This document shows, one piece after another, positions 21,265 to 47,739 of a stretch of 64,000 nt of DNA. The stretch is from Candidatus Poribacteria bacterium (GTDB taxonomy: Bacteria; Poribacteria; WGA-4E; WGA-3G). Position numbers and translations under genes: made by a program. The stretch is taken from NCBI GenBank assembly GCA_007571305.1, contig RKRR01000157.1:1-64000 (forward strand), read 5' to 3'. The first letter of the stretch is position 1. The number at the start of each line of letters is the position of its first letter. The notes beneath the pieces were generated by a model. It ran no database searches and was not told where the DNA came from. It saw only the letters and a list, made by a program, of their open reading frames with translations.

Positions 21265-21293
21265 TTGACAAACTTTTGAAGACATGTTATAAT
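21265..21293 (+). promoter_or_regulatory. Consensus sigma70-type promoter of the electron-transfer locus
   Basis: TTGACA (21265-21270) and TATAAT (21288-21293) are both perfect consensus hexamers separated by 17 bases. It is the best promoter in the window and points into the Rieske-cytochrome genes, with a leader of about 210 bases. Confidence 0.75.
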
Positions 21294-21416
21294 AATTAAC
21301 GCTCATTGCGCAAAATTGTTTCCGATGAACTCTGCACAATTCTCATCGAATCCATCTGGAATCAATGCGCCTGTCTTATTTGTGTGGGATAGACTTTCAA
21401 ATGTGGAAAGATTTTG

Positions 21417-21446
21417 GTGACATTTACTTGAAATTTGAGTTATAAT
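21417..21446 (+). promoter_or_regulatory. Second, proximal promoter candidate of the electron-transfer locus
   Basis: GTGACA and a perfect TATAAT (21441-21446) are 18 bases apart, about 65 bases before the GTG at 21513. With the upstream promoter this gives a tandem arrangement. Confidence 0.5.
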
Positions 21447-21512
21447 GTTTGCGATTCGCTTTTAGTTTGTAGGTGTGGCGCGTAAGCGTTCTCTACAAGA
21501 TCGGGGGTATAA

Positions 21513-22001
21513 GTGGTATCTCGACGTAAATTTTTTAAATTTCTCGGCTGGGGGAATTTCGTTGCAGCATTGGGCTTGACCTTCGGACCGGGATTGGTTC
21601 GATATTTGTATCCACGTGTGCTGTTTGAACCCTCCTCTGTATTTAAAGCAGGATTTCCAGCAGAATATCCGCCGGGTAGCGTGAGTGAAAAGTTCAAGAA
21701 AGAGCCGTTTGGTGTTTGGATTGTCCGAAAACAGGACGGTGAATTCTACGCGCTCTTAACGATTTGCACACACCTCGGATGCACGCCGCGCTGGCTCGGT
21801 TCTGAAAACAAATTCAAGTGCCCGTGTCACGGTAGCGGTTTCGACCGAGAGGGCATTAACTATGAAGGTCCTGCACCACGACCCCTGGAACGTGTTAAAA
21901 TTACTTTGGCAGAAGATGGACAGCTCGAAATCGACAAGTCTGTGAAGTTTTTAGGTGAGAAGGGGCAATGGACCGATCCAGGCTCCTTTTTGAAGGTCTG
22001 A
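21513..22001 (+). CDS. Rieske iron-sulfur protein of a bc-type complex
   Basis: A 162-residue protein anchored by an N-terminal helix that also carries a twin-arginine pattern (VSRRKFFKFLGWGNFVAAL), so it is probably exported by Tat with its cluster in place. The [2Fe-2S] ligands are C85 and H87 in CTHLGC and C103 and H106 in CPCHGS; C90 and C105 form the usual disulfide. It transfers electrons from quinol at the cytochrome b quinol site to a periplasmic cytochrome. The start is GTG after GGGGGT. It is the first gene of the locus. Confidence 0.93.
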   Translation: MVSRRKFFKFLGWGNFVAALGLTFGPGLVRYLYPRVLFEPSSVFKAGFPAEYPPGSVSEKFKKEPFGVWIVRKQDGEFYALLTICTHLGCTPRWLGSENKFKCPCHGSGFDREGINYEGPAPRPLERVKITLAEDGQLEIDKSVKFLGEKGQWTDPGSFLKV

Positions 22002-22117
22002 AGAAAGGAGAGCATTTGTGCCTGACTCCCTTCAGGTAGAAAAGGCGTTTGGGCGTTGTAGGACGCGGGTTGGAAGTTAGCATCGCAACGTCCCCGCCGA
22101 AACTTGCAAGAAAAAGT

Positions 22118-22888
22118 ATGAACGAAGAACGTAAAGGGCTGAAAGAAAAGATTACGAATTCCGACATTTGGCGTTCTATGTTCCGCCACGGATATGAAGA
22201 CACTGGGCGCCGTTATACCTTACAGGTCCTCCAAAACGTCTGGTTACATCTCCATCCTCCCCGGATTTCTCGCCACGCGCTGAACTTCCGATTCACATGG
22301 TGTATGGGCGGCATCACTTTTCTCATGTTCCTCGTGACAGCCGTCACCGGTGTACTCCTGATGTTCTACTACCGTCCAACAGCTGAATACGCCTTCCACG
22401 ATGTCCAATACCTTGAATTTGACATTCCGTTCGGGATGCTTCTGCGGAACATGCATCGCTGGGCAGCACACGGGATGGTTATCTCGGTGATGCTACATAT
22501 GTTCAGGGTGTTCTTGACAGGCTCATATAAGAAACCTCGAGAATTCAACTGGGCAGTTGGGGTTATTTTGTTGCTCGTGACGTTTTTCCTGAGTTTCACT
22601 GGTTATCTGTTGCCGTGGGACCAGTTGGCGTTTTGGGCGGTGACTGTCGGGACGAACATGGCACGTGCAACACCGGTCTTGGGGCATGAAGGCCCATTCG
22701 CCCCGCAAGACATCACGCAGTCGAACGATGTTCGATTCGCGCTGCTGGCGGGTACGATCGTAGGTCCCTCGACGTTGTTGAGGTTCTATATTTTGCACTG
22801 CGTTGCGGTACCACTGTTGGCAAGTGTTCTGATGGCTTTACATTTCTGGCGTGTCCGTAAAGATGGCGGTATCTCTGGACCTCTGTAA
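22118..22888 (+). CDS. Cytochrome b N-terminal half (cytochrome b6-like)
   Basis: A 256-residue inner-membrane protein with four helices that bind the two b hemes: NMHRWAAHGMVISVMLHMFR supplies one His pair member on helix B and HCVAVPLLASVLMALHFW supplies those of helix D. GYLLPWDQLAFWAVTVGTNM is the quinol-site helix region. The family core starts near LHPPRISRHALNFRFTW. The frame is open back to 22049; the ATG at 22118 is used although its ribosome site is weak. A GTG at 22018 with a good AAGGAGAG site opens only a 20-codon frame ending at 22080, which could be a leader peptide. Confidence 0.9.
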   Translation: MNEERKGLKEKITNSDIWRSMFRHGYEDTGRRYTLQVLQNVWLHLHPPRISRHALNFRFTWCMGGITFLMFLVTAVTGVLLMFYYRPTAEYAFHDVQYLEFDIPFGMLLRNMHRWAAHGMVISVMLHMFRVFLTGSYKKPREFNWAVGVILLLVTFFLSFTGYLLPWDQLAFWAVTVGTNMARATPVLGHEGPFAPQDITQSNDVRFALLAGTIVGPSTLLRFYILHCVAVPLLASVLMALHFWRVRKDGGISGPL

Positions 22889-23010: not shown

Positions 23011-23877
23011 ATGGAGCATTTTATAGCACTGGTGACGAAGCCGGATAATGTCCCCATTGTTGCTATTCTCTTTTTGATACCTTATTTCATCTGGCTTTCA
23101 TACCGGCAAGCACGCCAGACAGACAAGGCAGGTGTGCCCTCTGATGCCGCTCTTAATGATAAGGTTTACGTGTGGCCCTATCTGTGCCGGAATGAGTTTA
23201 TCTGCGCTATTATCGTGATGCTTGTGCTCGGTGTATGGTCTATTATGATTGATGCACCGCTTGAGGAACCCAGTGATCCGACGAAGACACCAAATCCCTC
23301 TAAAGCACCGTGGTATTTCCTTGCACTTCAAGAGATGCTCGTTTATTTCGATCCGTGGATTGCCGGAGTGGTGCTCCCAGGGCTGATCATCGCTGGCTTG
23401 ATTGCTATTCCCTACATTGACATTAATCCGAAAGGTAAGGGATATTACACAATAAAGGAACGTCCGTTTGCGCTTGCAGTATTCTCTTTCGGATTCATCG
23501 TTTTATGGATTGTCTTGATGGTCGTCGGTACATTCCTCAGAGGACCTGGATGGAACTTCTTTGCACCGTGGGAAGCGTGGGATCCACATCTTGTTGTCCC
23601 GTTGACCAATGTGAATTTGTCGTATCTTTTCGGTATACGCGATGCGGATACCGCGAACTATTTCGGATTCGCGGTCGTTGCAGGTTATTTCGCGATCGGT
23701 CCCATTTTCTACTTATGGAAGCAAAAGAGTAGCCAATTCTTACAGGAACTTGGTCTTGTTCGGTATATCGTCGTCTCTTTTCTGTTCTTAACGATGCTTG
23801 CACTGCCGATAAAAATGATACTGCGCGTCGCTTTAAATGTAAAATACATCTGGGTGTCTCCGTGGTTCAACATCTAA
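23011..23877 (+). CDS. Cytochrome b C-terminal subunit (subunit IV-like, extended)
   Basis: A 288-residue membrane protein supplying the C-terminal helices of the split cytochrome b. The quinol-site motif appears as KAPWYFLALQEMLVYFDPW, the variant of PEWY found in many bacterial complexes. It is longer than cyanobacterial subunit IV: extra hydrophobic segments follow (ALAVFSFGFIVLWIVLMVVG, NYFGFAVVAGYFAIGPIFYL, YIVVSFLFLTMLALPIKMI). It follows the cytochrome b gene by 122 bases that contain a family D unit. Confidence 0.85.
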   Translation: MEHFIALVTKPDNVPIVAILFLIPYFIWLSYRQARQTDKAGVPSDAALNDKVYVWPYLCRNEFICAIIVMLVLGVWSIMIDAPLEEPSDPTKTPNPSKAPWYFLALQEMLVYFDPWIAGVVLPGLIIAGLIAIPYIDINPKGKGYYTIKERPFALAVFSFGFIVLWIVLMVVGTFLRGPGWNFFAPWEAWDPHLVVPLTNVNLSYLFGIRDADTANYFGFAVVAGYFAIGPIFYLWKQKSSQFLQELGLVRYIVVSFLFLTMLALPIKMILRVALNVKYIWVSPWFNI

Positions 23878-24058: not shown

Positions 24059-27000
24059 GTGAGGAACAAAAAGGAAATTCCTGCTGAGAGTAAGTCGTAT
24101 TCTGCTTTGTTCTTTATTCTATCCGGATTGTTAGGACTGGTGACGATATGGGGATTCTGGGATGAGATGATTACTCGGCGTCCGTGGAAGCAGATCCAGC
24201 AGCAATTTTATCAATATGAGTATGAAAAAACAAGCGCGGAATTAGAGAATACAAAATTGGTTTTGCCTGAACTCCCCACACCTCAAGAACCTGATGCTAA
24301 GGAACTGGGTCGGTTAACGAAGGAGGTCAGGAACGCTCAAGTCGCCTTGGAAGAAGCACTGCAAGAACGCAAATTCCGACAGAGCGAATCCGATGCCATT
24401 AACTATAAATATCAGCATAGTCTCCATGAAGCAAAGGGTAGACACAATGCTACCGTTGACAAATGGCAGAAAAAATTGGCAGATTATGAGTCCCAAATTG
24501 AAGGCGAACTCACTGAAGCCGTTTTGAAAGCAGAAGCAGCCTTTGCAAATGCGAACATAACTTTAGCGAAATTTTATCAAACCAGTGGAGACGCTCCGAG
24601 TGCCCTCAGCACCTATCTCACCGCCCAGAAATATAGTCCTACAGATACGGAAATTACTGCAGGTATCACCGCCGCACAAGCATCCCTTCAATCATTGCAA
24701 ACAGACAAAGCAAAACATGACGAAGTTGAGCGCCTTGAAGAAAAATTGGATTCAGTAGGCGGTATCAAGCGAACCTTCTTGGGGAGTCTGTTAGAAAATC
24801 CTTTCCGTGAAACACGAACCATCGTTCAATACTATCTTGAAGACTTTAGTCATACCGCAGACAGGTGTGCTACCTGTCATTTCTCCGCTGATAAAGCGGG
24901 GTACGAACAGGCCGCACAAGAGATATTTGAGGTGGAAGGTGATGGCGAAAATCCAGTCGTGCATCGTCTCAAACATGCAAGTGTCAAAGTCGGTAGCGAG
25001 AATATTGTAATTGATGGGTTTGAGGCAGAAGCGGATGAATACACATTAGAGGAAAACGGTGCGCTTACCTTTAGTGACGTAGATGTCTTCGGTGAGGTTG
25101 AAGTCTCTTATGAGACCGGCTATCGTTCTGTCCTTCAGACGCATCCGCACCGCGATGTCCTTCTTGACAAACACCCGGTTGATAGATTCGGGTGTACGCT
25201 GTGCCACGGTGGGCAAGGTCAAGCCCTCACAGCGAAATCCGCCCACGCTTTGACGCATGCTGAATACTGGCTTACCCCTGTCCTCGGATTAGATGAGCAT
25301 ACCGGCAGAACATCTGAGGAGACGAAGGGGTATATGGAATCAAACTGTCGCCGCTGCCACGATGGCGTGATGATGTTAGATTACGGCGTGAATCCTGAAA
25401 CGGATGAACCGCAGGACTATGCCCCGAATTTGACGAAGGGATTGGCTCTCTTTGAAGACCTTGGATGCCACGGATGTCATGCTGTTGAAGGGTATAGTGC
25501 GATCGAAGACATTGCGAAAGTCGGGCCATCACTTGCAAAAGTCGGCAGTAAGGTGAAAAATACAGATTGGCTTGAAAGTTGGATTAAGAAACCCGAAGCG
25601 TATCTGGCAAATGCGGCAATGCCGAATTTCTTTCCCGTTGATGGTATGACGCAGATCGTTTATCTTAAAAACGGTGGACAGCGCACTGGCGTTGTTACGA
25701 AGACAGCCAGTGGTATCATCATTAAAACGGACGATGGCACAGAATACCCTTATCCCGATAACTATGTTCTCCGCATTGTGGATGAGGTAAAATCTATCGC
25801 GACGTACCTTGCCGGGATGAGCGATGCGAGTCTTGATGAGTCCAATTCCGATTATTCCACATCCGAAAGTGCTATTAAAGCGGGCGAGGAAACCGTCAAA
25901 ACCGTTGGTTGCCTCACATGTCATGCTGTTGATGGCTTGGGGAGTGATTTTGCGCCAGCACTCGACAGTGTGGGCACAAAAGTTACTGCGAGTTATCTGC
26001 ACCAATGGATAAGTGATCCAAAAGCATACGACCCAGATACCAGTATGCCGAGTTTGCGGTTAAGTAACAGGGAGGTTGACAACGTCGTCGCCTATCTGAT
26101 GAGTTTGCAACAAACAACGACAAACGTGGATACGGACTCCATCGGCGAAGTAGATGTAGCGGAAGGTGAGGCACTCGTCAGGACTTATGGATGTTTCGGT
26201 TGTCACGAGATTCCAGGCTTTGAGAATGAGTCAAAGGTCGGAGCAGATCTCGGTGAGTTCGGAGCGAAATTAGCGGATGAACTTGACTTTGGCGACACAG
26301 TAGGCATTGAGCACAGTTGGACAGGATGGACGATTGGTAAGGTTACCGATCCGCGACGTTATCAAACTCGCCGTATCGTTTCTCGGATGCCGGTCTTCCA
26401 GGTGAGCGATGAGGACGCGAGAGCGATCGCCGTTCTGTTAAAGAGTTTCCAACCTGAGAAGTATCCGCTGAGTTATATCCATAACCGATCCGAGAAATTG
26501 AACGACATTGACGCTGGGAGACGATTAGTAAAGAAATATAACTGCACCGGATGCCACGAGATTGAAGGGGCGGGTGGTGATTATCAGGATATTATCATCG
26601 CGCACGAAGGGTTGGGTGAGATGGTTGCCAAGCAATTGGCACCACCACCGTTGAAAGCGGAGGGCGCAAGAGTGTATCCAGACTGGTTATTTACGTTCCT
26701 CAAAGAACCCTCGGATGTCCGATACGGACTCAAGGTACGGATGCCGACATTTGGATTATCTGATGACGAGGCGACAACGTTGGTCAGGTATTTCTCCGCG
26801 CTTGACGATGAACCGTTCCCTTATGAGACGCTCGAAACGCCAACACCAACGAGTGCTGAATTACGAGTCGGTAAGCAGATTTTTGACGTGCTTCAGTGTA
26901 TCTCCTGCCACCCGGCAAAAGGTGAGGTAATTCCTGAAGGAAGTGACAAAGCAGGACGACCGGATCTTGCGTTGGCAAAAGAACGACTCAAAGCGGATTG

Positions 27001-27169
27001 GCTCATTGACTGGATGAAGGATCCGCAGACGTTCCAACCGGGAACTGCGATGCCGCAAGCGTGGCCCCTTGTTGGTGGACAGCACATGCCACTCGATGGT
27101 TATGCTGGCAATGATGCTGAAAAACAAATTCGACTCGTCCGAGATTATCTCATTTCCTTAGGACGTTAA
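24059..27169 (+). CDS. Membrane-anchored octaheme cytochrome c with coiled-coil domain
   Basis: A 1036-residue protein. One N-terminal helix (ALFFILSGLLGLVTIWGFW) is followed by a charged helical region (about 40-250) with heptad-like character, then eight CxxCH heme sites: C270, C379, C430, C470, C618, C712, C829 and C947 (first residues). The second half looks like repeated cytochrome c modules (CLTCH, CFGCH, CTGCH, CISCH), each with a distal methionine in MP-type segments such as DTSMPSLRLS, SRMPVFQVS, VRMPTFGLS and TAMPQAWPL. An SH3-like insert (QRTGVVTKTASGIIIKTDDG) lies near residue 545. It should take electrons from the Rieske/cytochrome b pair. The start is GTG after GGGAG. Confidence 0.9.
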   Translation: MRNKKEIPAESKSYSALFFILSGLLGLVTIWGFWDEMITRRPWKQIQQQFYQYEYEKTSAELENTKLVLPELPTPQEPDAKELGRLTKEVRNAQVALEEALQERKFRQSESDAINYKYQHSLHEAKGRHNATVDKWQKKLADYESQIEGELTEAVLKAEAAFANANITLAKFYQTSGDAPSALSTYLTAQKYSPTDTEITAGITAAQASLQSLQTDKAKHDEVERLEEKLDSVGGIKRTFLGSLLENPFRETRTIVQYYLEDFSHTADRCATCHFSADKAGYEQAAQEIFEVEGDGENPVVHRLKHASVKVGSENIVIDGFEAEADEYTLEENGALTFSDVDVFGEVEVSYETGYRSVLQTHPHRDVLLDKHPVDRFGCTLCHGGQGQALTAKSAHALTHAEYWLTPVLGLDEHTGRTSEETKGYMESNCRRCHDGVMMLDYGVNPETDEPQDYAPNLTKGLALFEDLGCHGCHAVEGYSAIEDIAKVGPSLAKVGSKVKNTDWLESWIKKPEAYLANAAMPNFFPVDGMTQIVYLKNGGQRTGVVTKTASGIIIKTDDGTEYPYPDNYVLRIVDEVKSIATYLAGMSDASLDESNSDYSTSESAIKAGEETVKTVGCLTCHAVDGLGSDFAPALDSVGTKVTASYLHQWISDPKAYDPDTSMPSLRLSNREVDNVVAYLMSLQQTTTNVDTDSIGEVDVAEGEALVRTYGCFGCHEIPGFENESKVGADLGEFGAKLADELDFGDTVGIEHSWTGWTIGKVTDPRRYQTRRIVSRMPVFQVSDEDARAIAVLLKSFQPEKYPLSYIHNRSEKLNDIDAGRRLVKKYNCTGCHEIEGAGGDYQDIIIAHEGLGEMVAKQLAPPPLKAEGARVYPDWLFTFLKEPSDVRYGLKVRMPTFGLSDDEATTLVRYFSALDDEPFPYETLETPTPTSAELRVGKQIFDVLQCISCHPAKGEVIPEGSDKAGRPDLALAKERLKADWLIDWMKDPQTFQPGTAMPQAWPLVGGQHMPLDGYAGNDAEKQIRLVRDYLISLGR

Positions 27170-27232: not shown

Positions 27233-27589
27233 ATGAGACACCTTGCCATCATCGTTGTTATGATTATTGTGTGGCTCAACGGCTTAATCTGGCTGGGTAA
27301 GCAGGTTGACCCGAGCACGAAGTATCAGTCAGAGGTTGAATACAAGTATGCTCGATACTGCGCGGGGTGTCATGGAAACAATGGGGAGGGCGGCGGACGC
27401 ATTGGACGTTTCAAAAAGTTAGATCCGGCAGATCTAACGGACAACGACCTGTGGGACATGCACAGTGAGGAACAATTGCTGGATAGTATCAACACCGGGA
27501 AAAATGATATGCCGGCGTTCTACTACTACCTTGATGATGAAGAGCAGCGCGAGCTTCTCGCCTACATTAAGGAGACGTTTCGTCCGTAA
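27233..27589 (+). CDS. Monoheme cytochrome c, membrane anchored
   Basis: A 118-residue class I cytochrome c. An uncleaved-looking helix (LAIIVVMIIVWLNGLIWLG) is followed by the heme site CAGCHGNNGEGGG (C43) and a late methionine in NDMPAFYYYLDD. It is a likely electron carrier working next to the octaheme protein, from which it is separated by 63 bases. Confidence 0.9.
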   Translation: MRHLAIIVVMIIVWLNGLIWLGKQVDPSTKYQSEVEYKYARYCAGCHGNNGEGGGRIGRFKKLDPADLTDNDLWDMHSEEQLLDSINTGKNDMPAFYYYLDDEEQRELLAYIKETFRP

Positions 27590-27702
27590 CTTGAAAACAG
27601 ATATTTGAAAATTGGATGTAGGTCTATTTGTTTGCATCCTGAGACTTTAGGGTGTTAATATATTGCAGGCTAAATTATAGTATAAAGGAGAAACTAATTA
27701 TT

Positions 27703-28452
27703 ATGAAAGTTTTAGTCGCTTTGCTTGTCTTTGGAATGCTGGCGAGCATTGCGTTTGCAGGCAACATCACCGGTACCGTGATGTATGAGGGGGACGCACC
27801 GGCGCGTCCTGCCTTGACAGCAACCAAGGATCAGCATTGCATTGATGCGGTAACAGGTACGAAGTCCGAGGCACTCGTTGTTTCAACGAGCAAAGGTATT
27901 AAAAACGTCGTTATTTACGCCCGTGTTCGTGGCGCGAAACCTACCGTCCCTGATAAGAACCCGGTGATGGACCAGAAGGCATGCGCTTACTATCCGCATG
28001 TCCTCGCAGTGGTTGCAGGCTCTACTATTGATATTACCTCCAGTGATCCAGTCGCACACAACGTCCATTCTCACGCGAAAAAGAACGACGCGATAAACTA
28101 TCAAATTCCACAGCCCGGCAAAGTCATCCCTCACAAAGTCGCTAAGGCTGAGGAAATTAAGTTCACATGCGATATCCACGCGTGGATGACGGGTTACATC
28201 GTCGCTGTTCCTAACAACTTTTTCACGGTTACCGGTTACAAAAATGCTGATGGCACATGGATCAGTTCAGATGACTATGAGAAATCCGCGGACACTGGTG
28301 CTTATTCAATCGCTGAAGTGCCAGCCGGTAGAGTCCGTGTCGTTGCATGGCATGAAGAACTCGGTTCAGCAAATAAAACTGTTGAAGTGCCAGCAAGTGG
28401 CGATATTGCTGTAAATTTCACAAGTGCTGACTTTAAGAAACGCGCCAAATAA
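27703..28452 (+). CDS. Periplasmic cupredoxin-like protein (copy 1)
   Basis: A 249-residue secreted protein with a clear signal peptide (KVLVALLVFGMLASIAFAG). A plastocyanin-like fold carries a type 1 copper ligand set: His in AHNVHSH, then Cys, His and Met in CDIHAWM. A CarboxypepD-like sheet (GAYSIAEVPAGRVRVVAWHE) follows. It is homologous to the protein at 34933-35715. The ATG at 27703 is used, with AAGGAG upstream; an earlier in-frame start would precede the signal peptide with unrelated residues. Probable one-electron copper carrier of the locus. Confidence 0.85.
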   Translation: MKVLVALLVFGMLASIAFAGNITGTVMYEGDAPARPALTATKDQHCIDAVTGTKSEALVVSTSKGIKNVVIYARVRGAKPTVPDKNPVMDQKACAYYPHVLAVVAGSTIDITSSDPVAHNVHSHAKKNDAINYQIPQPGKVIPHKVAKAEEIKFTCDIHAWMTGYIVAVPNNFFTVTGYKNADGTWISSDDYEKSADTGAYSIAEVPAGRVRVVAWHEELGSANKTVEVPASGDIAVNFTSADFKKRAK

Positions 28453-32104: not shown

Positions 32105-32366
32105 TTACCTTGCGGATAAATAACGCAATTTGAGACTTCCTGCTTTCTACGTTGGAGTTCAAGAACATCCCGTTGAATGCCACACGCTTATTCAGCGTTG
32201 ATTCGCAAAAACCCCTCTACTGCGTTATGAGTTTGCCGTTCGATGTTAGAAGTATGTTTGGAATATTCAAAAACCTGCCTGTAATGAAATTGGGTTGTCC
32301 TTAAATGACATAATTTGTCTTTGCTGGACATTTGGAAGGCAGGGCAGAAACTTAATAATTAAAAAA
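32105..32366 (+). repeat. Repeat family E element filling an intergenic gap
   Basis: The 271-bp gap starts with TTACCTTGCGGATAAATAACG and ends with AAAAACCTGCCTGTAATG and CTTAATAATTAAAAAA directly before the ATG at 32367. The same end blocks occur at 36847-37072 and 53807-54010. No gene was seen. Confidence 0.55.
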
Positions 32367-37984: not shown

Positions 37985-38650
37985 ATGCTGCAATGGCTCC
38001 CAGAGAACGTGTCAACGTTCGGGCAAAGCGTTGATAGCCTCTTTTACGGTATTTACTATCTTACCCTTGTTGTGTTTATCCTTGTGATGGGAACCCTTAT
38101 CGTTTTCCTGATTAAGTATCGCCATCAGGAGGGGAAGAGGGCGGACTACATTGAAGGTAGCACAACGCTGGAAATTACCTGGACAGCCGCCACAACGGTA
38201 ATTGTCTTTGGACTCGCGATGCTCAGTTACCCGCAGTGGAACAATATTAAGTCGCCCACACAATTTCCTGAGAATCCAGATGTTGTTGTCCAGGTCAGTG
38301 GAAAACAGTTTAACTGGGATATGACCTATCCGGGTCCCGATAACGAATTCGGGACGGATGATGACTTGGACTTGGAAAACGAGTTGCATGTGCCGATCAA
38401 CGCGGTCGTGCATATCCGCTTAACCGCTGAGGATGTCATCCACAGTTTTTTTGTGCCACAATTGCGTCTGAAACAGGATGCCCTGCCCAACCGATTTATC
38501 GATGTCTGGTTTGAGGCAACAAAAGCAGGTCGTTATGAAATTCCGTGTGCCGAATTGTGTGGATTTGGACACTCCGGGATGCTCGGGTATCTCAATGTGC
38601 ATACGCAAGACGACTATGATGCTTGGGTACAAGAAAGATGGCCTCAGTAG
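37985..38650 (+). CDS. coxB: Cytochrome c oxidase subunit II
   Basis: A 221-residue protein with two transmembrane helices (YGIYYLTLVVFILVMGTLIV, TTVIVFGLAMLSY) and a periplasmic CuA cupredoxin domain. The CuA site CAELCGFGHSGM gives C188, C192, H196 and M199, and the upstream His is in DVIHSFFVP. No cytochrome c domain is fused, so it is an aa3-type rather than caa3-type subunit. A strong AAGGAGG precedes the ATG. It starts the terminal-oxidase block. Confidence 0.95.
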   Translation: MLQWLPENVSTFGQSVDSLFYGIYYLTLVVFILVMGTLIVFLIKYRHQEGKRADYIEGSTTLEITWTAATTVIVFGLAMLSYPQWNNIKSPTQFPENPDVVVQVSGKQFNWDMTYPGPDNEFGTDDDLDLENELHVPINAVVHIRLTAEDVIHSFFVPQLRLKQDALPNRFIDVWFEATKAGRYEIPCAELCGFGHSGMLGYLNVHTQDDYDAWVQERWPQ

Positions 38651-40552: not shown

Positions 40553-41524
40553 ATGAAAGACGACACCAGTTATAGCCCATGGCTACACAGAATAGCCCGT
40601 TTCACCGCAGGCGCGACTTTCTTATTAATTGTCATTGGTGGGATTGTCACAAGTACCGAGTCCGGATTGGCTGTTCCTGATTGGCCCACAACCTTTGGAC
40701 ACAATATGTTTCTTTATCCACTCTCGGAGATGGTGGGCGGCATCTTATATGAGCATAGTCATCGGCTCATGGGCTCTCTCGTAGGACTGTTGACAATCGG
40801 TCTCTTTGTTTTTCTTCTGGTAAGAGATCCCCGCAGATGGCTGAAATGGCTTGGGCTTGCTGCTTTGGTCTCCGTTATTGTACAGGGTGTTCTCGGTGGA
40901 CTTCGGGTTACACAGATTAATCTCAACTTTGCGATAGTGCATGCATGCCTTGCACAAGCGTTCTTTGCTCTTCTTTGTGGAATCGCTTGGTTCACCTCTC
41001 GCGAGTGGTGGCAAGACTTTCATGCAGCAAATTCTGGCTTGCAAGTTACGCCAAGAAGTGAGCCCCTGATTGCGTCAGCACAGAAGTTGCGCCGGTTAAG
41101 CCTGATTACGACGGGCCTTATTTACGTGCAACTCATCTTTGGCGCGATTTTGAGACATACCGGGAGCAGACTTGATGCCCATCTTCTCTTTGCGTTCTTG
41201 GTCGCGCTACATATCTTTTTGTTAGCAAGACGTGTGCTTGAGGTAAATGGGGGCACACAGGGAATAGGCCAGGCGATGCCGCTGGTATTGCTCGGTCTGC
41301 TTGTTGTTCAATTGATGCTCGGCACTGGGGCGTTTTTCGCGAAACTTACGGCATTCGGAGAAACATTCGCAACTGGACTTACGGTTACGATCACGACTGC
41401 ACACGTCGCAGTCGGTGCGCTTCTGTTGGTGAGCAGTTTTGTGCTTACGCTGAGAATCTACCGATTCACTGATGCATCGGTAGGTGTCGGTGCACCCGCG
41501 AGTGATGTGCTGGTCACAGAATGA
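40553..41524 (+). CDS. ctaA: Heme A synthase CtaA
   Basis: A 323-residue, eight-helix membrane enzyme that oxidises the C8 methyl of heme O to give heme A. Landmarks are GGIVTSTESGLAVPDWPTTF, EHSHRLMGSLVGL (heme-binding His pair region), HACLAQAFFALLCG and, in the second half, HLLFAFLVALHIF and TTAHVAVGALLLV. It belongs with ctaB and coxAB, and the set shows that the oxidase uses heme A. Confidence 0.93.
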   Translation: MKDDTSYSPWLHRIARFTAGATFLLIVIGGIVTSTESGLAVPDWPTTFGHNMFLYPLSEMVGGILYEHSHRLMGSLVGLLTIGLFVFLLVRDPRRWLKWLGLAALVSVIVQGVLGGLRVTQINLNFAIVHACLAQAFFALLCGIAWFTSREWWQDFHAANSGLQVTPRSEPLIASAQKLRRLSLITTGLIYVQLIFGAILRHTGSRLDAHLLFAFLVALHIFLLARRVLEVNGGTQGIGQAMPLVLLGLLVVQLMLGTGAFFAKLTAFGETFATGLTVTITTAHVAVGALLLVSSFVLTLRIYRFTDASVGVGAPASDVLVTE

Positions 41525-41534
41525 GACAAAGATA

Positions 41535-42449
41535 ATGCGTCCAACAACGATAACATTGCCAGACAATACGGATACGGCGAAACAGGCTGTTTTTGCGCCC
41601 AGTGTCGCAGACTTTATCGAACTCGTCAAGCCGAGATTAGTGGTGATGATACTCATTACAACCGCCGCGGGTTTCTATCTCGGTGCACAGCAGACAGTTG
41701 ATTGGCTGCGATGCCTACATACACTTGTCGGGGCAGGATTGACTGCCGCTGGGGTCTTAGGACTTAACCAATACCTTGAACGCGATGTAGACGCTCGAAT
41801 GAAACGAACGCAAGAGAGACCCCTCCCTGGCGGTAGAATGAATCCCTTGACCGCCCTTCTTGTCGGTGCTGTCCTCACAGGCGGTGGGATGCTTTACTTG
41901 ACGTTTATCGTCAATGTGCTGAGTGGTTTTGTTATTTCGCTGATAGTTGTGAGTTATCTGTTTCTCTATACACCGCTCAAGCGAAAAACCTCACTGTGTA
42001 CGCTTATTGGTGCTGTGCCGGGTGCGCTCCCACCTGTTGTCGGATGGGTTGCATCACGGGGGGCACTCACAGGTGAGGCGTGGGTGCTGTTCACGATACT
42101 CTTTTTGTGGCAGTTGCCACACTCTCTCGCAATAGCTTATATCTATCGTGAGGACTACGCAAAAGCGGGATTCCGTTTGTTGCCTGTCATTCATCCGGAT
42201 GGGACGAGCACGTGCCGTCAAATTGTGGTTAACTGCGTCGCACTCATCGGAATAGGATTGTTACCCACGTTGTATCACATCGCCGGAACTGTCTACTTCT
42301 TCACAGCACTACTGGCGGGTGTGGCGTTTCTGGCAGTCGGGATATATTTGGCACGCACACGTTCGGTAAAAGCCGCCCGCTATCTGCTCTATGCTTCACT
42401 GGTCTATCTGCCGTTGGTATATATCACGATGGCGTTGGACAAGATGTAA
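41535..42449 (+). CDS. ctaB: Protoheme IX farnesyltransferase CtaB
   Basis: A 304-residue UbiA-family membrane prenyltransferase converting heme B to heme O with farnesyl diphosphate. The two aspartate motifs are visible: NQYLERDVDARMKRTQERPL and, later, YIYREDYAKAGFRLLPV. ELVKPRLVVMILITTAAGF is the family start. The frame opens earlier inside ctaA, but the ATG at 41535, just after the ctaA stop, is the sensible start. Confidence 0.93.
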   Translation: MRPTTITLPDNTDTAKQAVFAPSVADFIELVKPRLVVMILITTAAGFYLGAQQTVDWLRCLHTLVGAGLTAAGVLGLNQYLERDVDARMKRTQERPLPGGRMNPLTALLVGAVLTGGGMLYLTFIVNVLSGFVISLIVVSYLFLYTPLKRKTSLCTLIGAVPGALPPVVGWVASRGALTGEAWVLFTILFLWQLPHSLAIAYIYREDYAKAGFRLLPVIHPDGTSTCRQIVVNCVALIGIGLLPTLYHIAGTVYFFTALLAGVAFLAVGIYLARTRSVKAARYLLYASLVYLPLVYITMALDKM

Positions 42450-42466
42450 TCGGGGATCTGTAGATT

Positions 42467-42709
42467 ATGAGCAAATTGGAGCATCGCAAGCGAAATCGCC
42501 GCCTCGGACTTATCTTGTGTCTGCTGTTTGTAGGGCTGTTTGCCATTGTAACAGTATCTATGATTACAGGCAGCAAAGCACCTCAATCTGTTGAGAATGT
42601 TATCAGAGGTTTTGTCGTCCCTGTTTTAGGTATTATCGGATTGCTACTGATTGTCGCGGCGGTAATTGAAATAGTTGTTCGGATTGTAAGAAATAGGGTG
42701 CGTGAGTGA
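42467..42709 (+). CDS. Small membrane protein of the oxidase cluster, unknown function
   Basis: An 80-residue protein with a basic N-terminus (SKLEHRKRNRRLG) and two transmembrane helices (LILCLLFVGLFAIVTVSMI and VVPVLGIIGLLLIVAAVIEIVV), ending in another basic stretch. Its stop overlaps the next start (TGATG). I do not recognise a family; position suggests a small oxidase subunit or assembly factor. Confidence 0.65.
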   Translation: MSKLEHRKRNRRLGLILCLLFVGLFAIVTVSMITGSKAPQSVENVIRGFVVPVLGIIGLLLIVAAVIEIVVRIVRNRVRE

Positions 42710-43287
42710 TGGCACAGATACACCAACGTTCACCCTTGAGCAACGCACGCTTGGGTATATTAGTCCTGCTGGGTGCAGAGACGATGCTGTTTTCAGGGCT
42801 TATCGGTACATTTCTCGTCTTTCGAGTCGGGAATGTCACTTGGCCCCCACCATCGCATATCGGGATTGAACTACCGCGCGCGATAACCGGCATCAACACT
42901 GTCCTTCTTTTATTGAGCGGCTACACGATGTTTCAAGCGCGCCGCGCCATTCAGAATGACCGAGTGAAGCAACTCCGCACATGGCTTTTGCTGACAGGAG
43001 GGCTTGGCTTACTCTTCCTCGGTGTGCAGGGAAGCGAGTGGGTGCAGCTGATTCGCAACGGGCTTACGCTCCAATCTGGGGTCTATGGCGGCATCTTTTA
43101 TGTACTCATCGGATGCCATGCTGTTCATGTCCTGAGTGCTGTTATCTGGCTGTTCATCGTTTTCGGTATGGCGGTGGCAGGACGTTTCTCTGCTGAACGT
43201 TACATAGGCATTGATACTTGTACGATCTACTGGATTTTTGTTGTCGCCCTCTGGCCGATTCTCTATGTTTTGGTGTATCTCTCGTAA
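42709..43287 (+). CDS. Cytochrome c oxidase subunit III-like protein (first copy)
   Basis: A 192-residue, five-helix member of the COX3 family: LGILVLLGAETMLFSGLIGTF, WPPPSHIGIELPRAITGINTV, LFLGVQGSEWVQLIRNGLTL, FYVLIGCHAVHVLSAVIWL and IYWIFVVALWPILYVLVYL. It is shorter and more diverged than the second copy at 43610. The ATG overlaps the previous stop by one base. Two subunit III genes in one cluster suggest either a split role or two oxidase forms sharing subunit I. Confidence 0.88.
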   Translation: MAQIHQRSPLSNARLGILVLLGAETMLFSGLIGTFLVFRVGNVTWPPPSHIGIELPRAITGINTVLLLLSGYTMFQARRAIQNDRVKQLRTWLLLTGGLGLLFLGVQGSEWVQLIRNGLTLQSGVYGGIFYVLIGCHAVHVLSAVIWLFIVFGMAVAGRFSAERYIGIDTCTIYWIFVVALWPILYVLVYLS

Positions 43288-43300
43288 AGGAATTGTTGGA

Positions 43301-43591
43301 ATGCATAAATTGTTTTTTTGGGCATCTGCCTTGATACTTGTTATGTTCCTCGTACCGATGTCTCTTGAGGCGTGTCCCGGCTGTAAAACGCTTGACGACC
43401 CTATCGGTAAAGGTTTTAATTGGAGTATCCTTTTTATGATAGCGATGCCTTTCACTGTTTTCGGTCTCATCGGCGGCACTATTTTTTTACAATGGAACGG
43501 TTATCGGTTATCGGTTATCGGTAGTCGGTTAAAGAAAGATTTTCTCCGCATCAGAAATTTCCTTAACCGACAACCAGCAACTGACAATTAA
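43301..43591 (+). CDS. Small exported protein with CPGC motif, C-terminus extended by a repeat
   Basis: A 96-residue protein: a signal peptide (KLFFWASALILVMFLVPMSLEA), immediately a CPGC pair (ACPGCKTLDDP), then a helix (GFNWSILFMIAMPFTVFGLIGGTIFL). Small proteins of this design sit in oxidase clusters of several phyla, and the cysteine pair invites a role in copper delivery, which is inference. The last 29 residues (GYRLSVIGSRLKKDF to QPATDN) are encoded by a family D repeat and are probably dispensable. Confidence 0.72.
   Translation: MHKLFFWASALILVMFLVPMSLEACPGCKTLDDPIGKGFNWSILFMIAMPFTVFGLIGGTIFLQWNGYRLSVIGSRLKKDFLRIRNFLNRQPATDN
43499..43590. repeat. Repeat family D array forming the 3' end of a gene
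   Basis: Three consecutive GGTTATC units are followed by GGTAGTCGGTTAAAGAAA, and about 30 bases later the complement AATTTCCTTAACCGACAACC appears. The arms can pair into a long hairpin. The stop codon of the CPGC gene lies at its right edge. Confidence 0.65.
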
Positions 43592-43609
43592 CAAAGGAGT
43601 TTAAATATA

Positions 43610-44260
43610 GTGGAACACGCTACCACTTCGGATCATACTGAAGACGTATATGAACCTTCACTGACGCCGGATAGCCTCGGTAAACTCGGCATGTGGATCT
43701 TTCTCGTCGGGGATACCATGTCGTTTGGTGCGTTGCTGGCGGCTTATGCCGCTATCCGGGCAGGTGCGGGTGTAATCGGTTGGGTCCCACCAAGCGAGAT
43801 TCTCGGTATTAACCTAACTGCGTTTATGACATTCCTGTTGATATGCAGTAGTGTCACGATGGTGAAAGCACTGGAGTCGATTCAGAACGGCAATGTCTCG
43901 CGCATGTGCATGTTCCTTGGATTGACGATCGGGGGAGGCGTAATCTTTCTTGGGTTACAGGCTTACGAATGGTATCATCTGATCACCCACGGATTGACCC
44001 TTACGGGTATTCCCGACCACGGGTTATCAGGTGCCGCAATTAGTGGCTCAACGCTTTTTGGTCCCACTTTTTACACCATCACAGGTTTCCACGGGATGCA
44101 CGTAACCGGTGGTGTCATTTATCTCTTGGTTATTTTCATAAATGGCTTACGCGGCAGATATACCGCCGAGTTTAACCACGAGGTAGAAATCGTCGGGCTT
44201 TACTGGCACTTCGTTGACCTGATCTGGATTATGGTTTTCACCTTCATCTATCTACTGTAG
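43610..44260 (+). CDS. coxC: Cytochrome c oxidase subunit III (second copy)
   Basis: A 216-residue COX3 protein starting at a GTG with AAAGGAG upstream. Landmarks: LGMWIFLVGDTMSFGALLAAY, GWVPPSEILGINLTAFMTFL, LGLQAYEWYHLITHGLTL, FYTITGFHGMHVTGGVIYL and VGLYWHFVDLIWIMVFTFIYL, the last being the family's C-terminal signature. It is the better match to canonical subunit III and directly precedes subunit IV. Confidence 0.93.
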   Translation: MEHATTSDHTEDVYEPSLTPDSLGKLGMWIFLVGDTMSFGALLAAYAAIRAGAGVIGWVPPSEILGINLTAFMTFLLICSSVTMVKALESIQNGNVSRMCMFLGLTIGGGVIFLGLQAYEWYHLITHGLTLTGIPDHGLSGAAISGSTLFGPTFYTITGFHGMHVTGGVIYLLVIFINGLRGRYTAEFNHEVEIVGLYWHFVDLIWIMVFTFIYLL

Positions 44261-44271
44261 GAGGAATGAAA

Positions 44272-44607
44272 ATGGCAGAAAACGGACACCAAGAGCATCC
44301 AAAGTATTTCAAAATTTTCTGGTGGCTTCTTGCACTCACCATTATTGAGGTGGCTGTGGCGATACCGGAATACTCGGTTGTTTTAAAAGCCATCCTGCTC
44401 ATCGGACTGGCATGTTCCAAAGCCGCTTTAGTTGCTATCTATTTCATGCATCTGAAGTTTGAAAAGAGAACGTTGACGGTTATTGTACTGACACCTTTTA
44501 TTATCTGTGTTTTTCTCGTCATCATGCTGATGCCTGATCTCACGACAGATGATCGGCACGAAGGGATAGAGAAACCCGTGGAAGTCGCTGATACGTCCGT
44601 TCACTAA
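44272..44607 (+). CDS. Cytochrome c oxidase subunit IV (prokaryotic type)
   Basis: A 111-residue protein with three helices (FFKIFWWLLALTIIEVAVAI-like start, VVLKAILLIGLACSKAALVAIYFMHLKFE, LTVIVLTPFIICVFLVIMLM). The segment KAALVAIYFMHLKFE is the family hallmark. Of two nearby ATGs, 44272 is spaced properly from TAGGAGG; 44266 is too close. Confidence 0.87.
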   Translation: MAENGHQEHPKYFKIFWWLLALTIIEVAVAIPEYSVVLKAILLIGLACSKAALVAIYFMHLKFEKRTLTVIVLTPFIICVFLVIMLMPDLTTDDRHEGIEKPVEVADTSVH

Positions 44608-44627
44608 CTATTGGTTGGGTGTTGGAT

Positions 44628-45266
44628 ATGGAGACACAAGTCGAAGATGCCGGTAAAGTTAAACGGAAGCTCGATAAAAGCACCCTCATTTGGGTGGCAC
44701 TCGGTGTCATCATTATCGGCATCGCGGGAATCAATTTATGGTCGGTATTTGACACTAAATCGGAGGTGCAGATCTCTAAAACTGCCGCTGTCAACGTGCC
44801 AGACTTTCGCCTGACAACACAACTCGGAGAGCCATTAACGCTGTCTGACATGAAGGGCAAAATTTGGGTCGCAGACTTTATCTTCACCAATTGCCCAACC
44901 ATTTGTCCGGCAATGACACAGGAGATGGCGCGCCTTCAGTCCGAATTTGTTGCAGACCCTGTCTATTTCGTCTCCTTCTCTGTGGATCCAGAGCGGGATA
45001 CGTCAAGTGTCCTCTCACGCTACGCAAAGACTTATGGTGCTGACGATAGACGTTGGTATTTTCTTACGGGGGATAAGACGCATATCTATCAGTTAGCCGA
45101 AGAAGGGTTCAGTTTAGCCGCGGGGCACAACGGCACCGAAATACTGCATAGTTCACGGTTTGCTCTCATTACGCCAGATGGAAACATCTATGGCTACTAC
45201 GATAGTCGAAGCAAACCGGCATTGCTGCGCCTACGGCGAGATGTCAAAGCACTCCTCGGAAGATGA
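44628..45266 (+). CDS. SCO1/SenC copper chaperone
   Basis: A 212-residue thioredoxin-fold protein anchored by one helix (STLIWVALGVIIIGIAGINL). The copper site is C89 and C93 (NCPTICPAM) with H174 (ILHSSRF). It loads CuA of subunit II, consistent with its place after the oxidase genes. A GTG at 44619 is an alternative start three codons earlier. Confidence 0.92.
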   Translation: METQVEDAGKVKRKLDKSTLIWVALGVIIIGIAGINLWSVFDTKSEVQISKTAAVNVPDFRLTTQLGEPLTLSDMKGKIWVADFIFTNCPTICPAMTQEMARLQSEFVADPVYFVSFSVDPERDTSSVLSRYAKTYGADDRRWYFLTGDKTHIYQLAEEGFSLAAGHNGTEILHSSRFALITPDGNIYGYYDSRSKPALLRLRRDVKALLGR

Positions 45267-45391
45267 TTTTTTATCTATTCGTCCTGCGTTCGATTCGGTT
45301 TGGTTTGAACTAACTGGCTCCTCTACGTAACTCCGTCCAATCTTACAGGTTGGACTACACGGTTTAGCCAAGTCGATTTGTTTAGAGGCAA

Positions 45392-45676
45392 ATGATAAAC
45401 AGTATCCCAGGTCTGTTGATTTCAGTAGCGGCTTTTGTAGTTCATTTCACGTTCGGGTTTTACCGTGGACGGTTTAAAAGGTTTAGCCGTCCGTGGAGCA
45501 GGTGCCTCTACATACCGATTGTTATTAACATCGTTGTGCGGCGTTTTGTTCTCCACTGGGACTGGCAAACTGCGATGATTTATCTATGGCCCGCAACGTT
45601 GATCGCCCATATCCTCGGTGGATTTCTGGGGGCTCGTTACAGAATAGATGAACAGGATAGAATACGGAAACCATAG
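45392..45676 (+). CDS. Small hydrophobic protein, unknown function
   Basis: A 94-residue protein with about three hydrophobic stretches (GLLISVAAFVVHFTFGFY, CLYIPIVINIVVRRFVL, MIYLWPATLIAHILGGFLGA) and Arg-rich loops between them. I recognise no family. It follows SCO after 125 bases that include a solo GAACTAACTGG segment and no gene. Confidence 0.5.
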   Translation: MINSIPGLLISVAAFVVHFTFGFYRGRFKRFSRPWSRCLYIPIVINIVVRRFVLHWDWQTAMIYLWPATLIAHILGGFLGARYRIDEQDRIRKP

Positions 45677-45834
45677 CCCCTAAGCCTTTATAAGAGAATT
45701 GCGATAGGGGAGCGTCTCTTAGGGAAGGCGCGTGAAATATGCAACCTATGTTATTCTCTCGCAACGCTTTCTAACGATTAGGTTTTCGCAAAAATTTCAA
45801 TGCTTGTTGTTCTCCTGCAAGGAAAAATAAAAAG

Positions 45835-47739
45835 ATGATAAAAAAAATCTACGTACCTGTTGACAATTCGGACTACTCGGACGCAAGTGTTGCTCTGGCA
45901 GTTGCGTTCGCGAGGAAGTTCGGCTCCCAATTGGTAGGTTCACACGTTTACGCCGCAAAAATGCACGATGTTCGCTTTAAACAGATGGAGTACACCCTGC
46001 CAGAGGAGTACCAAGACGAGGTCGAGCTTGAAAAACAGCGTCGTATCCACGATACGCTCATTACGATGGGACTGCAACTCATCTCGGACTCCTATCTTGA
46101 GGTGATGAAGCAGAAGTGCACTGAATTCGGGATCCCGTTTGAACCGAAAATGCCGGAAGGCAAACACTTTATAAAACTCGTTGAGGATATTCAGGAAAGC
46201 GATTACGATCTTGTGATTATGGGTGCACTCGGTATGGGTGCTGTCAAGGATAGTCTCATCGGTGGTGTCTGTGAACGCGTCGTCCGCCGTATTAATACCG
46301 ATATGCTTATCGTCCGGGACCTGGAACCTATCGAAAAAAGTGAAGGAAATATTCTCGTCGGGATTGATGGAAGTCCAGAGTCTTTTTCAGGCTTGAAAAC
46401 TGCGATACAGCTCGGACATAAGTTCAACAAACAGGTCGAAGCCGTCGGTGTCTACGATCCCTATCTACACTATATTGTCTTCAATTCTGTTGTGAATGTG
46501 CTCACGGAACGCGCCGCACGGACTTTCAGATTTAAAGAGCAGGAGCAACTCCACGAAGAGGTGATTGATACTGGCTTAGCAAAAATCTATCAATCGCATT
46601 TGGAGGTTGCACGCTCCATCGCAAAAGAGGAACACGACTACACCCTAAAAATTACCCTGCTTGATGGCAAAGCCTACGAAAAAATTCTACAATACGCCCG
46701 AAAAACAGATCCGTGGCTCCTCGTCTTAGGCAGAATCGGTGTCCACAGTGAACAGGATATGGACATCGGTAGCACCGCCGAGAATCTATTGCGCCTTGCC
46801 CCTTGCAACGTCCTCCTATCGAGCCAACGTTATTTCCCACAAATAGATGTGAAAGCGGAAGAGACGCTCGTCTGGACACAGGAGGCTTTGGACAGGATGG
46901 AGAAGGCACCATCCCTTGTCCGTGGCATTGCCAAGACAGCCGTCCATCGGTTTGCTATAGAGCGCGGACATTCTGTCATCACTGAGAGTGTCATTGACAT
47001 GGCGATGGAAGCGATCATGCCGCAGCGTGCCTCTGAAAAATTGACCCGCGTCGCAAAAGAGATCGCTGAACAGAAGGTACTCGAGTCGGATGCCGTCCGA
47101 ACGTACATCTGTTCCGAATGTGGCTACGCCGCACACAACCAACAACCCGTGAAATGTCCTGTTTGTAGTTCATCGCCGGAGCGTTTTCAGCGGGTGGACA
47201 AGGGATCATTGCAGAATATTGCTGTGGACGAAGGTGGCACTGCTGAGGAAGAGACATTTGATGGCGTGCGGCTCCAATGGTCGGAACAGGCGAAAAAGGC
47301 GTTGCGAAGTGTTCCGCGCGGCTATATGCGCCGAAACGTCAAAGCACGTATCGAGAAATCCGCACGTTCTCAAAAGATTGCCACTATCACAAACGCCTTC
47401 GCAACCGAAATTATTGATGACAGCATGGGTGAAGCGGCGGCAGTCCGTGAAGATGCTCCCGAACTTAGAGCCATGCAAGCGCAGACCGACGCTCGGAACA
47501 CTGAAGTCGTTCGAGGTTTTGAGAGTCCGGTGTCGTGGACCCAAGAGGCAATCGAACGTTTGAATTTAGTACCTGCCGGATTTATGCGGAATATCACGCA
47601 GACCCGAATTGAACAGCGAGCACAAGAGAACAACATTACCCAAATTACGCTTGATTTCGCTGCACGGGTCATTGAAGACGGCAGGAGTCTCGCCAATGAG
47701 GTACTTGGTCAGTACTATCAACAGTCAAACCAGGATTGA
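45835..47739 (+). CDS. Tandem universal stress protein fused to rubredoxin and three PCP_red domains
   Basis: A 634-residue soluble protein of unusual architecture. Two Usp domains (about 1-160 and 172-330) come first; the first has the nucleotide-loop pattern GALGMGAVKDSLIGGV and the second GRIGVHSEQDMDIGSTAENLL. Then three PCP_red helical domains (the fold found at the C-terminus of BchB, about 343-395, 478-530 and 565-620), recognisable from WTQEALDRMEKAPSLVRG, WSEQAKKALRSVPRGYMR and WTQEAIERLNLVPAGFMR. A rubredoxin-like C4 site (C426, C429, C441, C444) sits between the first two. No photosynthesis gene is present. A redox- or iron-linked regulatory role for the oxidase locus is plausible but unproved. 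Confidence 0.85.
   Translation: MIKKIYVPVDNSDYSDASVALAVAFARKFGSQLVGSHVYAAKMHDVRFKQMEYTLPEEYQDEVELEKQRRIHDTLITMGLQLISDSYLEVMKQKCTEFGIPFEPKMPEGKHFIKLVEDIQESDYDLVIMGALGMGAVKDSLIGGVCERVVRRINTDMLIVRDLEPIEKSEGNILVGIDGSPESFSGLKTAIQLGHKFNKQVEAVGVYDPYLHYIVFNSVVNVLTERAARTFRFKEQEQLHEEVIDTGLAKIYQSHLEVARSIAKEEHDYTLKITLLDGKAYEKILQYARKTDPWLLVLGRIGVHSEQDMDIGSTAENLLRLAPCNVLLSSQRYFPQIDVKAEETLVWTQEALDRMEKAPSLVRGIAKTAVHRFAIERGHSVITESVIDMAMEAIMPQRASEKLTRVAKEIAEQKVLESDAVRTYICSECGYAAHNQQPVKCPVCSSSPERFQRVDKGSLQNIAVDEGGTAEEETFDGVRLQWSEQAKKALRSVPRGYMRRNVKARIEKSARSQKIATITNAFATEIIDDSMGEAAAVREDAPELRAMQAQTDARNTEVVRGFESPVSWTQEAIERLNLVPAGFMRNITQTRIEQRAQENNITQITLDFAARVIEDGRSLANEVLGQYYQQSNQD

Follow-up and report, generated by a model that had tools for sequence, protein, structure and literature searches.

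Nitrospira, Nitrospina and anammox bacteria have been described to encode, next to their nitrite oxidoreductase (NXR), proteins resembling subunit I of cytochrome bd (CydA), and what is said of these proteins here follows the available excerpts of the cited papers. The bd-like protein of Nitrospina was described with 14 helices, three of them replacing the Q-loop, and without the quinol residues, and its gene cluster as one that also encodes NxrC, mono- and diheme cytochromes, two cupredoxins and a zinc-finger protein (PMC3578206). In Nitrospira, the cluster was described to contain alt_NxrC_2 (one helix, two hemes), two membrane cytochromes c and bd-like_3 (PMC6606698), and the two c-type cytochromes of the counterpart in PMC8026999 are a diheme and a triheme. 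The OR-N family of the cytochrome bd superfamily comprises a CydA homolog that has no quinol site and is putatively fed by cytochrome c; OR-N enzymes were proposed to be CydA/CydA′ pairs, and OR-N proteins were already reported in Nitrospinota that apparently do not oxidize nitrite (PMC10839748, PMC12342949). Here we describe a module that, matched by description, is of the bd-like/alternative-NxrC kind in a Candidatus Poribacteria bacterium, where it is located between the genes of a bc-type complex and those of an aa3-type oxidase on a 64,000-nt stretch of DNA (the window: contig RKRR01000157.1 of assembly GCA_007571305.1, positions 1 to 64,000, forward strand). Likeness to the proteins of Nitrospira, Nitrospina and Kuenenia is by published description, not by sequence.

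The 26-kb locus is made up of three separable parts: (1) Rieske, cytochrome b and octaheme cytochrome genes, (2) the CydA-like module and (3) the aa3 oxidase with its assembly genes. We read these as three linked blocks, of which the second would be a quinol-independent second branch, fed by cytochrome c, built around a CydA-like core and ending on O2, a reading that we judge evenly balanced between right and wrong. The locus contains 24 genes, all on the + strand (21513 to 47739; 92% coding), which were called by open reading frames (ORFs) and Pfam profile matches, with heme c counted as CxxCH motifs. These calls confirmed all redox genes and the same-strand layout given in a preliminary description of the sequence, whose gene list left three + strand ORFs unnamed (43211-43591, 45392-45676 and 45835-47739). 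That description also took the middle block for a possible dedicated electron entry or branch point; the block proved to be a conserved redox module, which is most plausibly read as a dedicated branch or a branch point. The promoter and the genes of the first two parts are as follows:

21265..21293, + strand: sigma-70-type promoter, 12/12 match to TTGACA-17-TATAAT, with extended -10 (TG)
21513..22001, + strand: Rieske iron-sulfur protein (PF00355, E=6.5e-12)
22049..22888, + strand: cytochrome b, N-terminal half (PF00033, E=5e-45)
23011..23877, + strand: cytochrome b, C-terminal half (PF00032, E=4e-7)
24059..27169, + strand: octaheme cytochrome c, 1036 aa (8 CxxCH; PF00034/PF13442; partly class I-type domains; N-terminal hydrophobic segment 15-33)
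27233..27589, + strand: small monoheme cytochrome c (PF13442, E=1e-12)
27652..28452, + strand: cupredoxin-like protein 1 (cup1), first gene of the CydA-like module (CxxHxxM motif, CDIHAWM)
28520..30424, + strand: CydA-like (bd-like) core, 634 aa (PF01654, E=3e-17, residues 46-327 only; 14 hydrophobic segments)
30584..32095, + strand: membrane-anchored diheme cytochrome c (by Pfam, CxxCH count and hydrophobic segments)
32295..33143, + strand: membrane-anchored monoheme cytochrome c (start uncertain, alignments with genus relatives covering 259-269 of the 282 residues)
33144..34856, + strand: NxrC-like protein, two heme c domains (2 CxxCH), EB_dh domain (PF09459, E=2e-16) and C-terminal helix (segment 547-565)
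34933..35715, + strand: cupredoxin-like protein 2 (cup2; CxxHxxM motif, CDIHGWM)

Both cupredoxin-like proteins were named by motif and similarity, their only Pfam matches at the E-value limit used being of the CarboxypepD_reg/fn3 type. The NxrC-like protein matched TIGR03477 with E=6e-24, under the cut-off of that model; its EB_dh domain is that of the heme b-carrying gamma subunit of type II dimethyl sulfoxide (DMSO) reductases.

The preliminary description had found no place for the middle module among known chains. This did not hold, as its composition fits the bd-like/alternative-NxrC cluster beside NXR, and one poribacterial genome carries the module next to NXR-like genes (see below). 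Like the clusters of Nitrospina, Nitrospira and anammox bacteria, the module encodes a bd-like protein with about 14 helices that lacks the quinol residues, mono- and diheme cytochromes c, here each with three hydrophobic segments N-terminally, and an NxrC-like protein with two hemes c and one helix; as in Nitrospina, there are two cupredoxin-like proteins. Unlike in those clusters, no NXR alpha or beta subunit and no TorD were found in the window, to which the TorD search was confined, and the poribacterial module sits between the bc complex and the aa3 oxidase and shares a palindrome with the bc genes in sister lineages. By description it also resembles the TO_1 complex of Candidatus Manganitrophus, a bd-like protein with a periplasmic cytochrome b, which differs in having been described in Nitrospirota (excerpt of PMC9040806). 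Since OR-N proteins were already reported in Nitrospinota apparently not oxidizing nitrite, independence from NXR is not new as such. The arrangement appears to be a new variant: without NXR, between bc and aa3 genes, and with the palindrome shared with bc in sister lineages. Among the literature matches listed, to which subscription papers largely do not belong, there was no description of the module in Poribacteria.

The CydA-like gene is the only PF01654 match in the genome to which the window belongs. A structure model was made from 51 sequences (the window, genome G045 and 49 of 50 loci described below, L029 being left out), and replaced an earlier model from 8 sequences that was dropped (pLDDT 39). 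It aligned with ten bd-oxidase subunit I entries at VIA-align Z values of 21.7-23.9 over 314-328 residues (rmsd 3.8-4.3 Å). The next-best fold neighbours were membrane subunits of alternative complex III (Z 16.9-18.1), and those under rank 13 were taken as unspecific helical bundles. In an alignment with E. coli CydA, H19 (H57 in the CydA-like protein), H186 (H264) and E107 (E144) are kept, and the quinol-loop residues K252/E257 are lost. The protein thus shares with canonical CydAB the fold of subunit I and H19/H186, and differs from it in the lack of CydB and of the quinol-loop residues, in a diverged C-terminal half and in having 14 hydrophobic segments, of which the first may be a signal anchor, compared to 8-9 in two canonical CydA proteins. 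Over the 51 sequences, H57, H166, H264, H296, H418 and H568 are invariant, and the mean column identity is 74%. The CydB family (PF02322) had no match in the window genome (G000) or in the single-contig relative G032. In 40 genomes searched, CydB-family matches were found in 22 and a weaker second CydA match elsewhere in the genome in 20, compared to 33 with the CydA-like gene, which indicates that a canonical cytochrome bd is accessory in these bacteria.

Another reading is that quinone trades electrons with the CydA-like complex at a new type of site, the complex working either as an alternative complex III or in the reverse direction, with electrons passing from cytochrome c to quinone. Such roles have been put forward for bd-like proteins in Nitrospina and Nitrospira (excerpts of PMC3578206 and PMC6606698), and the fold neighbours next in rank would agree with them. 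The quinol-loop residues checked are lost, however, a bc complex is encoded next door, which would make a second complex III look redundant, and in organisms that have been described as degrading carbohydrates one would not expect reverse transport; we consider this reading improbable. The search for an ActB-type iron-sulfur/molybdopterin-like subunit of alternative complex III was by PF00384, which had no match on the contig of the window (C81); no search with a model of ActB itself was made.

The window is contig C81 of a 4.8-Mb metagenome-assembled genome (MAG) in 200 contigs that is 94.4% complete. When named genomes were scanned for the CydA-like protein, 50 loci came up, every one titled Poribacteria, and the host is therefore taken as a poribacterium; the seed peptides of the scan were drawn from Poribacteria, and its Poribacteria-only outcome does not imply absence elsewhere. 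Outside the phylum, there were no matches in viral contigs, and plasmids gave only two Niallia records at 22% coverage. The gene-order search in other genomes of the phylum that the preliminary description had suggested showed the locus to be collinear in 50 out of 50 public loci as far as each extends, the shortest holding two genes. Per-gene identity to relatives at the order level was about 46-94%, mostly 60-80%. The same order was present in eight genomes that were either additional or overlapped with these (four each from the genus and the order) and in G036, G037, G051 and G069 (genomes, loci and families carry our own labels, G, L and f). Where the stretch was long enough, relatives continued with coxBA-ctaAB-coxC-coxC-coxIV-SCO on to the Usp gene, with about 6 kb between SCO and Usp in G032. 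A chance association was rejected in view of the 50 collinear loci, and an assembly artefact in view of the agreement of the single-contig genomes G010, G022, G032, G005 and G069.

A survey of 84 genomes of the phylum (CydA-like match threshold E<=1e-30) detected the CydA-like gene in 67: 55/58 in family f1, 2/2 in f2, 9/9 in f4, 0/3 in f3, 1/6 in f5 and 0/6 in the rest, the three f1 genomes without a match being multi-contig drafts. A module of the same make-up was present in 66 of the 69 genomes of f1, f2 and f4. All three f3 genomes contain Rieske, both cytochrome b halves and the octaheme cytochrome (8 CxxCH, 1063-1065 aa), followed by a 258-268-aa protein, a 267-272-aa cupredoxin 2-like protein and coxA; neither the CydA-like protein nor any module cytochrome was matched in these three. 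The module is a cassette, since parts 1 and 3 are found in f3 (3/3) without part 2; the f3 CoxA is 45-47% identical, its cox order differs, and f3 may not show the exact ancestral state. The preliminary description had regarded separate occurrence of module and oxidase in relatives as evidence against a single unit, and f3 shows this in part, having the bc-type genes near coxA and no module.

NXR-like genes do occur in family f5. In G045, a 79% complete MAG, the CydA-like gene (39% identity) lies within an NXR-like cluster whose alpha subunit is of the type II DMSO-reductase kind (TIGR03479 best, E=2e-112) and whose beta subunit is best matched by TIGR03478 (E=2e-73), both under the cut-offs of the models. 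The cluster also encodes a TorD/NarJ-like protein (PF02613), two NxrC-like proteins, diheme and monoheme cytochromes, a Usp protein and a cupredoxin-like protein. In a comparison of 16 window proteins with 9 of G045, the CydA-like protein, diheme c, monoheme c, EB_dh, cupredoxin 2 and Usp were reciprocal best matches. The NxrC-like gene precedes the CydA-like gene in G045 and follows it in the window. NxrB of G045 is 72-73% identical to NxrB of three other f5 genomes, which speaks against its NXR-like contig being a stray one; those three genomes had no CydA-like match at the survey threshold. Full-length NxrB relatives were found in 4/84 genomes, all f5, and in 0/69 genomes of f1, f2 and f4, with only weak partial matches in four f4 genomes. 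Nitrite oxidation or nitrate reduction is possible in f5, judging from these genes. Loci L129, L131 and L132 (G046-G048, f5) contain NXR/type II DMSO-reductase-like clusters (catalytic ORF of about 1150-1165 aa, NxrB) without the CydA-like module, and in G046 an NxrC-like gene is followed by a cupredoxin-like gene, again without the module.

With NXR-like genes beside a divergent copy in G045 and none in f1, f2 and f4, the module might be taken for the relic of an NXR cluster, drifting without function after NXR was lost. The sequence conservation of the CydA-like protein and its invariant histidines, the order kept in 50/50 loci and the finding of an in-frame stop in the CydA-like gene only in G036, out of the 67 genomes with a match, make this highly improbable.

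In the window genome, PF00384 gave four matches in three places, none of them best matched by a type II DMSO-reductase model. The first place holds a protein of the formate dehydrogenase/assimilatory nitrate reductase type beside a nitrite/sulfite reductase-type and a transporter-type gene (neighbours of PF00384 genes being named by sequence reading), the second a formate dehydrogenase that scores above the TIGR01591 cut-off and whose gene contains an in-frame TGA, and the third NuoG. NXR elsewhere in the genome was rejected, as no type II DMSO-reductase alpha or NxrB relative was found in the MAG, whose incompleteness bears on this. The same result bears on a reading of the module as an electron-entry hub, in which the EB_dh and diheme proteins would take electrons from a periplasmic dehydrogenase and pass them through cytochromes and cupredoxins to aa3, the CydA-like protein being mainly an anchor or heme b relay. 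Domains of the EB_dh/TIGR03477 type form the heme b subunits in type II molybdoenzymes, the block sits between the bc and oxidase genes, and a possible loss of the b595 ligand would suit a relay. Alternative NxrC was also proposed as an anchor of NXR (excerpt of PMC6606698). The partner enzyme, of which no type II candidate was found in the incomplete MAG, would nevertheless need to be conserved across 66 genomes while unlinked, and the upstream palindrome groups the module with bc and not with coxBA. We consider the hub unlikely.

A 16-bp palindrome was found in loci outside the genus group of the window, a sister-lineage set defined by CydA under 79% identity. It precedes Rieske in 13/13 (11 exact, 2 with one mismatch) and cup1 in 18/18 (9 exact, 9 with one mismatch), and at up to one mismatch it was absent within 250 bp before the other 14 genes tested in these lineages, cytb_N to ctaA, coxB and coxA included. 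Two cross-match rows were set aside after a check, cup1 row L056 (the query hit cup2, cup1 lying beyond the contig) and cup2 row L058 (which hit cup1); with both included, the raw counts are 18/19 for cup1 and 1/10 for cup2. Both sites were mapped to Rieske and cup1 in G069, G026, G027, G029 and G032 (at 2692 and 9024 in L069, and at 1505775 and 1511799 in C1 of G069), exact save for one mismatch at Rieske in G032, and none of these five genomes contained a further exact copy. G026 and G029 each have one 1-mismatch site outside the locus. Allowing up to two mismatches, eight genomes showed 3 to 6 sites each, compared to 0 to 2 for the reversed control, and three of the eight without an exact copy still had 3-5 sites. 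No exact copy was present in the f3 genome G025, which lacks the module, or in G045, G051, G010 and the window genome. As the palindrome precedes Rieske and cup1 and not the other 14 genes, the module in the sister lineages is probably a unit of its own that shares its control with the bc complex and not with the aa3 oxidase. This pattern suggests that blocks 1 and 2 are two units under one dedicated regulator, with coxBA unmarked.

In the genus of the window, Rieske is preceded by a consensus promoter, and the palindrome is no longer present. The promoter that the preliminary description placed at 21265 is probably real within the genus, since a looser form (TTGAC, 16-18 nt, TANAAT) recurs upstream of Rieske in 22/26 close relatives and in 0/12 more distant ones; promoter-like sites overall were no commoner than in shuffles (22 vs 21.3; 10 vs 11.8). 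Gaps of 120-256 bp are found at 10 of the 23 junctions of the locus, the two ABC genes are separated by a gap that holds a 13-pair terminator-like repeat (36913-36942), and from 38000 on terminator-like sites exceed shuffles (19 vs 10.0, both strands).

The preliminary description had treated the 26 kb as one unit, and 24 genes on one strand in conserved order, behind a strong promoter conserved in the genus, would fit a single operon encoding one fixed bc/CydA-like/aa3 supercomplex, supercomplexes having been suggested for a similar region of Nitrospira (excerpt of PMC6606698). This was not upheld: f3 has the bc-octaheme genes and coxA without the module in 3/3 genomes, the palindrome marks two separate starts, before Rieske and before cup1, in the sister lineages, and unrelated genes are inserted in several relatives. 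One operon for one fixed supercomplex appears quite improbable to us, though a supercomplex as such may exist.

Block 1, with its Rieske protein, split cytochrome b, octaheme and small cytochrome c, is a quinol:cytochrome c reductase of the bc type. Under our preferred reading of a second branch ending on O2, the bc complex and octaheme cytochrome would deliver high-potential electrons to the small cytochrome c or the cupredoxins. From these carriers, electrons would go both to the aa3 oxidase and to the module, with its five hemes c and a single heme b, the latter predicted from EB_dh. From the module hemes, electrons would pass to the CydA-like core, possibly within a physical complex, and from there to O2, a putative step and the weakest of the scheme. 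O2 is proposed as acceptor on two grounds: the bd fold and two histidines are retained in the core, and relatives in the literature have been interpreted as terminal oxidases.

Several observations weigh against this scheme. The equivalent of E445, which we take to be the heme b595 ligand of E. coli CydA (ligand roles are likewise assumed), is a glycine, that of E99 is a tyrosine, and M393 has no clear counterpart, so the bd-type O2 site may be missing, the assignments in the C-terminal half being weak, as they come from a global MAFFT alignment and the profile comparison with canonical CydA aligned only residues 44-189. The structure model is only moderate (pLDDT 61). Unlike the OR-N CydAA′ pairs, a single CydA-like gene and no CydA′ partner were found in the 94% complete window genome. 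In several relatives, the locus is interrupted by unrelated genes on the same strand. The palindrome test ended at ctaA, the later cox genes lying outside it, and the palindrome is absent in the genus of the window itself, where one of 28 cup1 rows (L071) has a 1-mismatch site and none of 26 Rieske rows has any.

A canonical cytochrome bd was rejected for the module on the absence of CydB and the loss of the quinol-loop residues K252/E257 and of E99 and E445.

The remaining genes of the locus, comprising an ABC exporter pair and the third part, are the following:

35836..36843, + strand: ABC-2 exporter ATPase (PF00005)
37073..37852, + strand: ABC-2 exporter permease (PF01061)
37985..38650, + strand: CoxB, no heme c motif (no CxxCH; PF00116, PF02790)
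38671..40494, + strand: CoxA (PF00115, sole match in genome)
40553..41524, + strand: CtaA heme A synthase (PF02628)
41484..42449, + strand: CtaB heme O synthase, ORF start overlapping ctaA (PF01040)
42706..43287, + strand: CoxC copy 1 (PF00510)
43211..43591, + strand: 126-aa ORF, no Pfam match, overlapping coxC1, kept between the coxC copies in relatives
43610..44260, + strand: CoxC copy 2 (PF00510)
44266..44607, + strand: Cox subunit IV (PF03626)
44619..45266, + strand: SCO1/SenC copper chaperone (PF02630)
45392..45676, + strand: 94-aa ORF, after sco in most relatives reached, not in G032
45835..47739, + strand: protein with Usp x2, PCP_red x3 and zinc ribbon (Pfam), locus end in relatives, with a relative in the G045 NXR-like cluster

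The region 37985-45266 has CoxA, COX2-type CoxB, CoxC and the heme A synthesis genes, and is thus of the aa3 type; CoxA matched TIGR02891 with E=3e-187 (623 bits vs a cut-off of 671). The ABC-2 exporter pair (35836-37852) is retained directly before coxB in module-bearing relatives. In L046 and L115 the coxB match is broken by a diheme-cytochrome-like stretch, possibly a heme c domain inside CoxB. Among 634 neighbouring gene pairs, 17 are more than 900 bp apart (998-3594 bp); they come from nine loci, of which three belong to the genus group of the window. Loci with insertions are L058, L060, L063, L064 and L065 (family f4 type) and L039, L040 and L044 (genus of the window), and all inserted ORFs above 128 aa are on the same strand; by sequence reading, they encode a dicarboxylate-type symporter, periplasmic binding proteins, an adenine methylase with an HNH-type protein and, in L044, an IscB-like protein. 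Beyond the locus, three successive + strand genes of the beta-lactamase fold (PF00144; 58068-61907) are likely a tandem expansion.

No function has been assigned to the bd-like proteins of nitrifiers and anammox bacteria, and their conserved gene neighbours tend to be interpreted in terms of nitrite oxidation. We tentatively propose, while expecting such a generalization rather to fail than to hold, that the module known from their NXR clusters may be a partner of the bc complex and not an NXR accessory: a bc-dependent, CydB-free, quinol-independent bd-like oxidase with a five-heme-c/cupredoxin relay, whose operator in the sister lineages is common only to the bc genes. One phylum here offers a comparative set of genomes with the module beside NXR-like genes, with the module alone and with bc and aa3 genes without the module, and the palindrome, as a hint from regulation, links the module with the bc complex. 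The presence of a syntenic, NXR-free module in f1, f2 and f4 (66/69 genomes) suggests that it has a job of its own in Poribacteria, independent of NXR.

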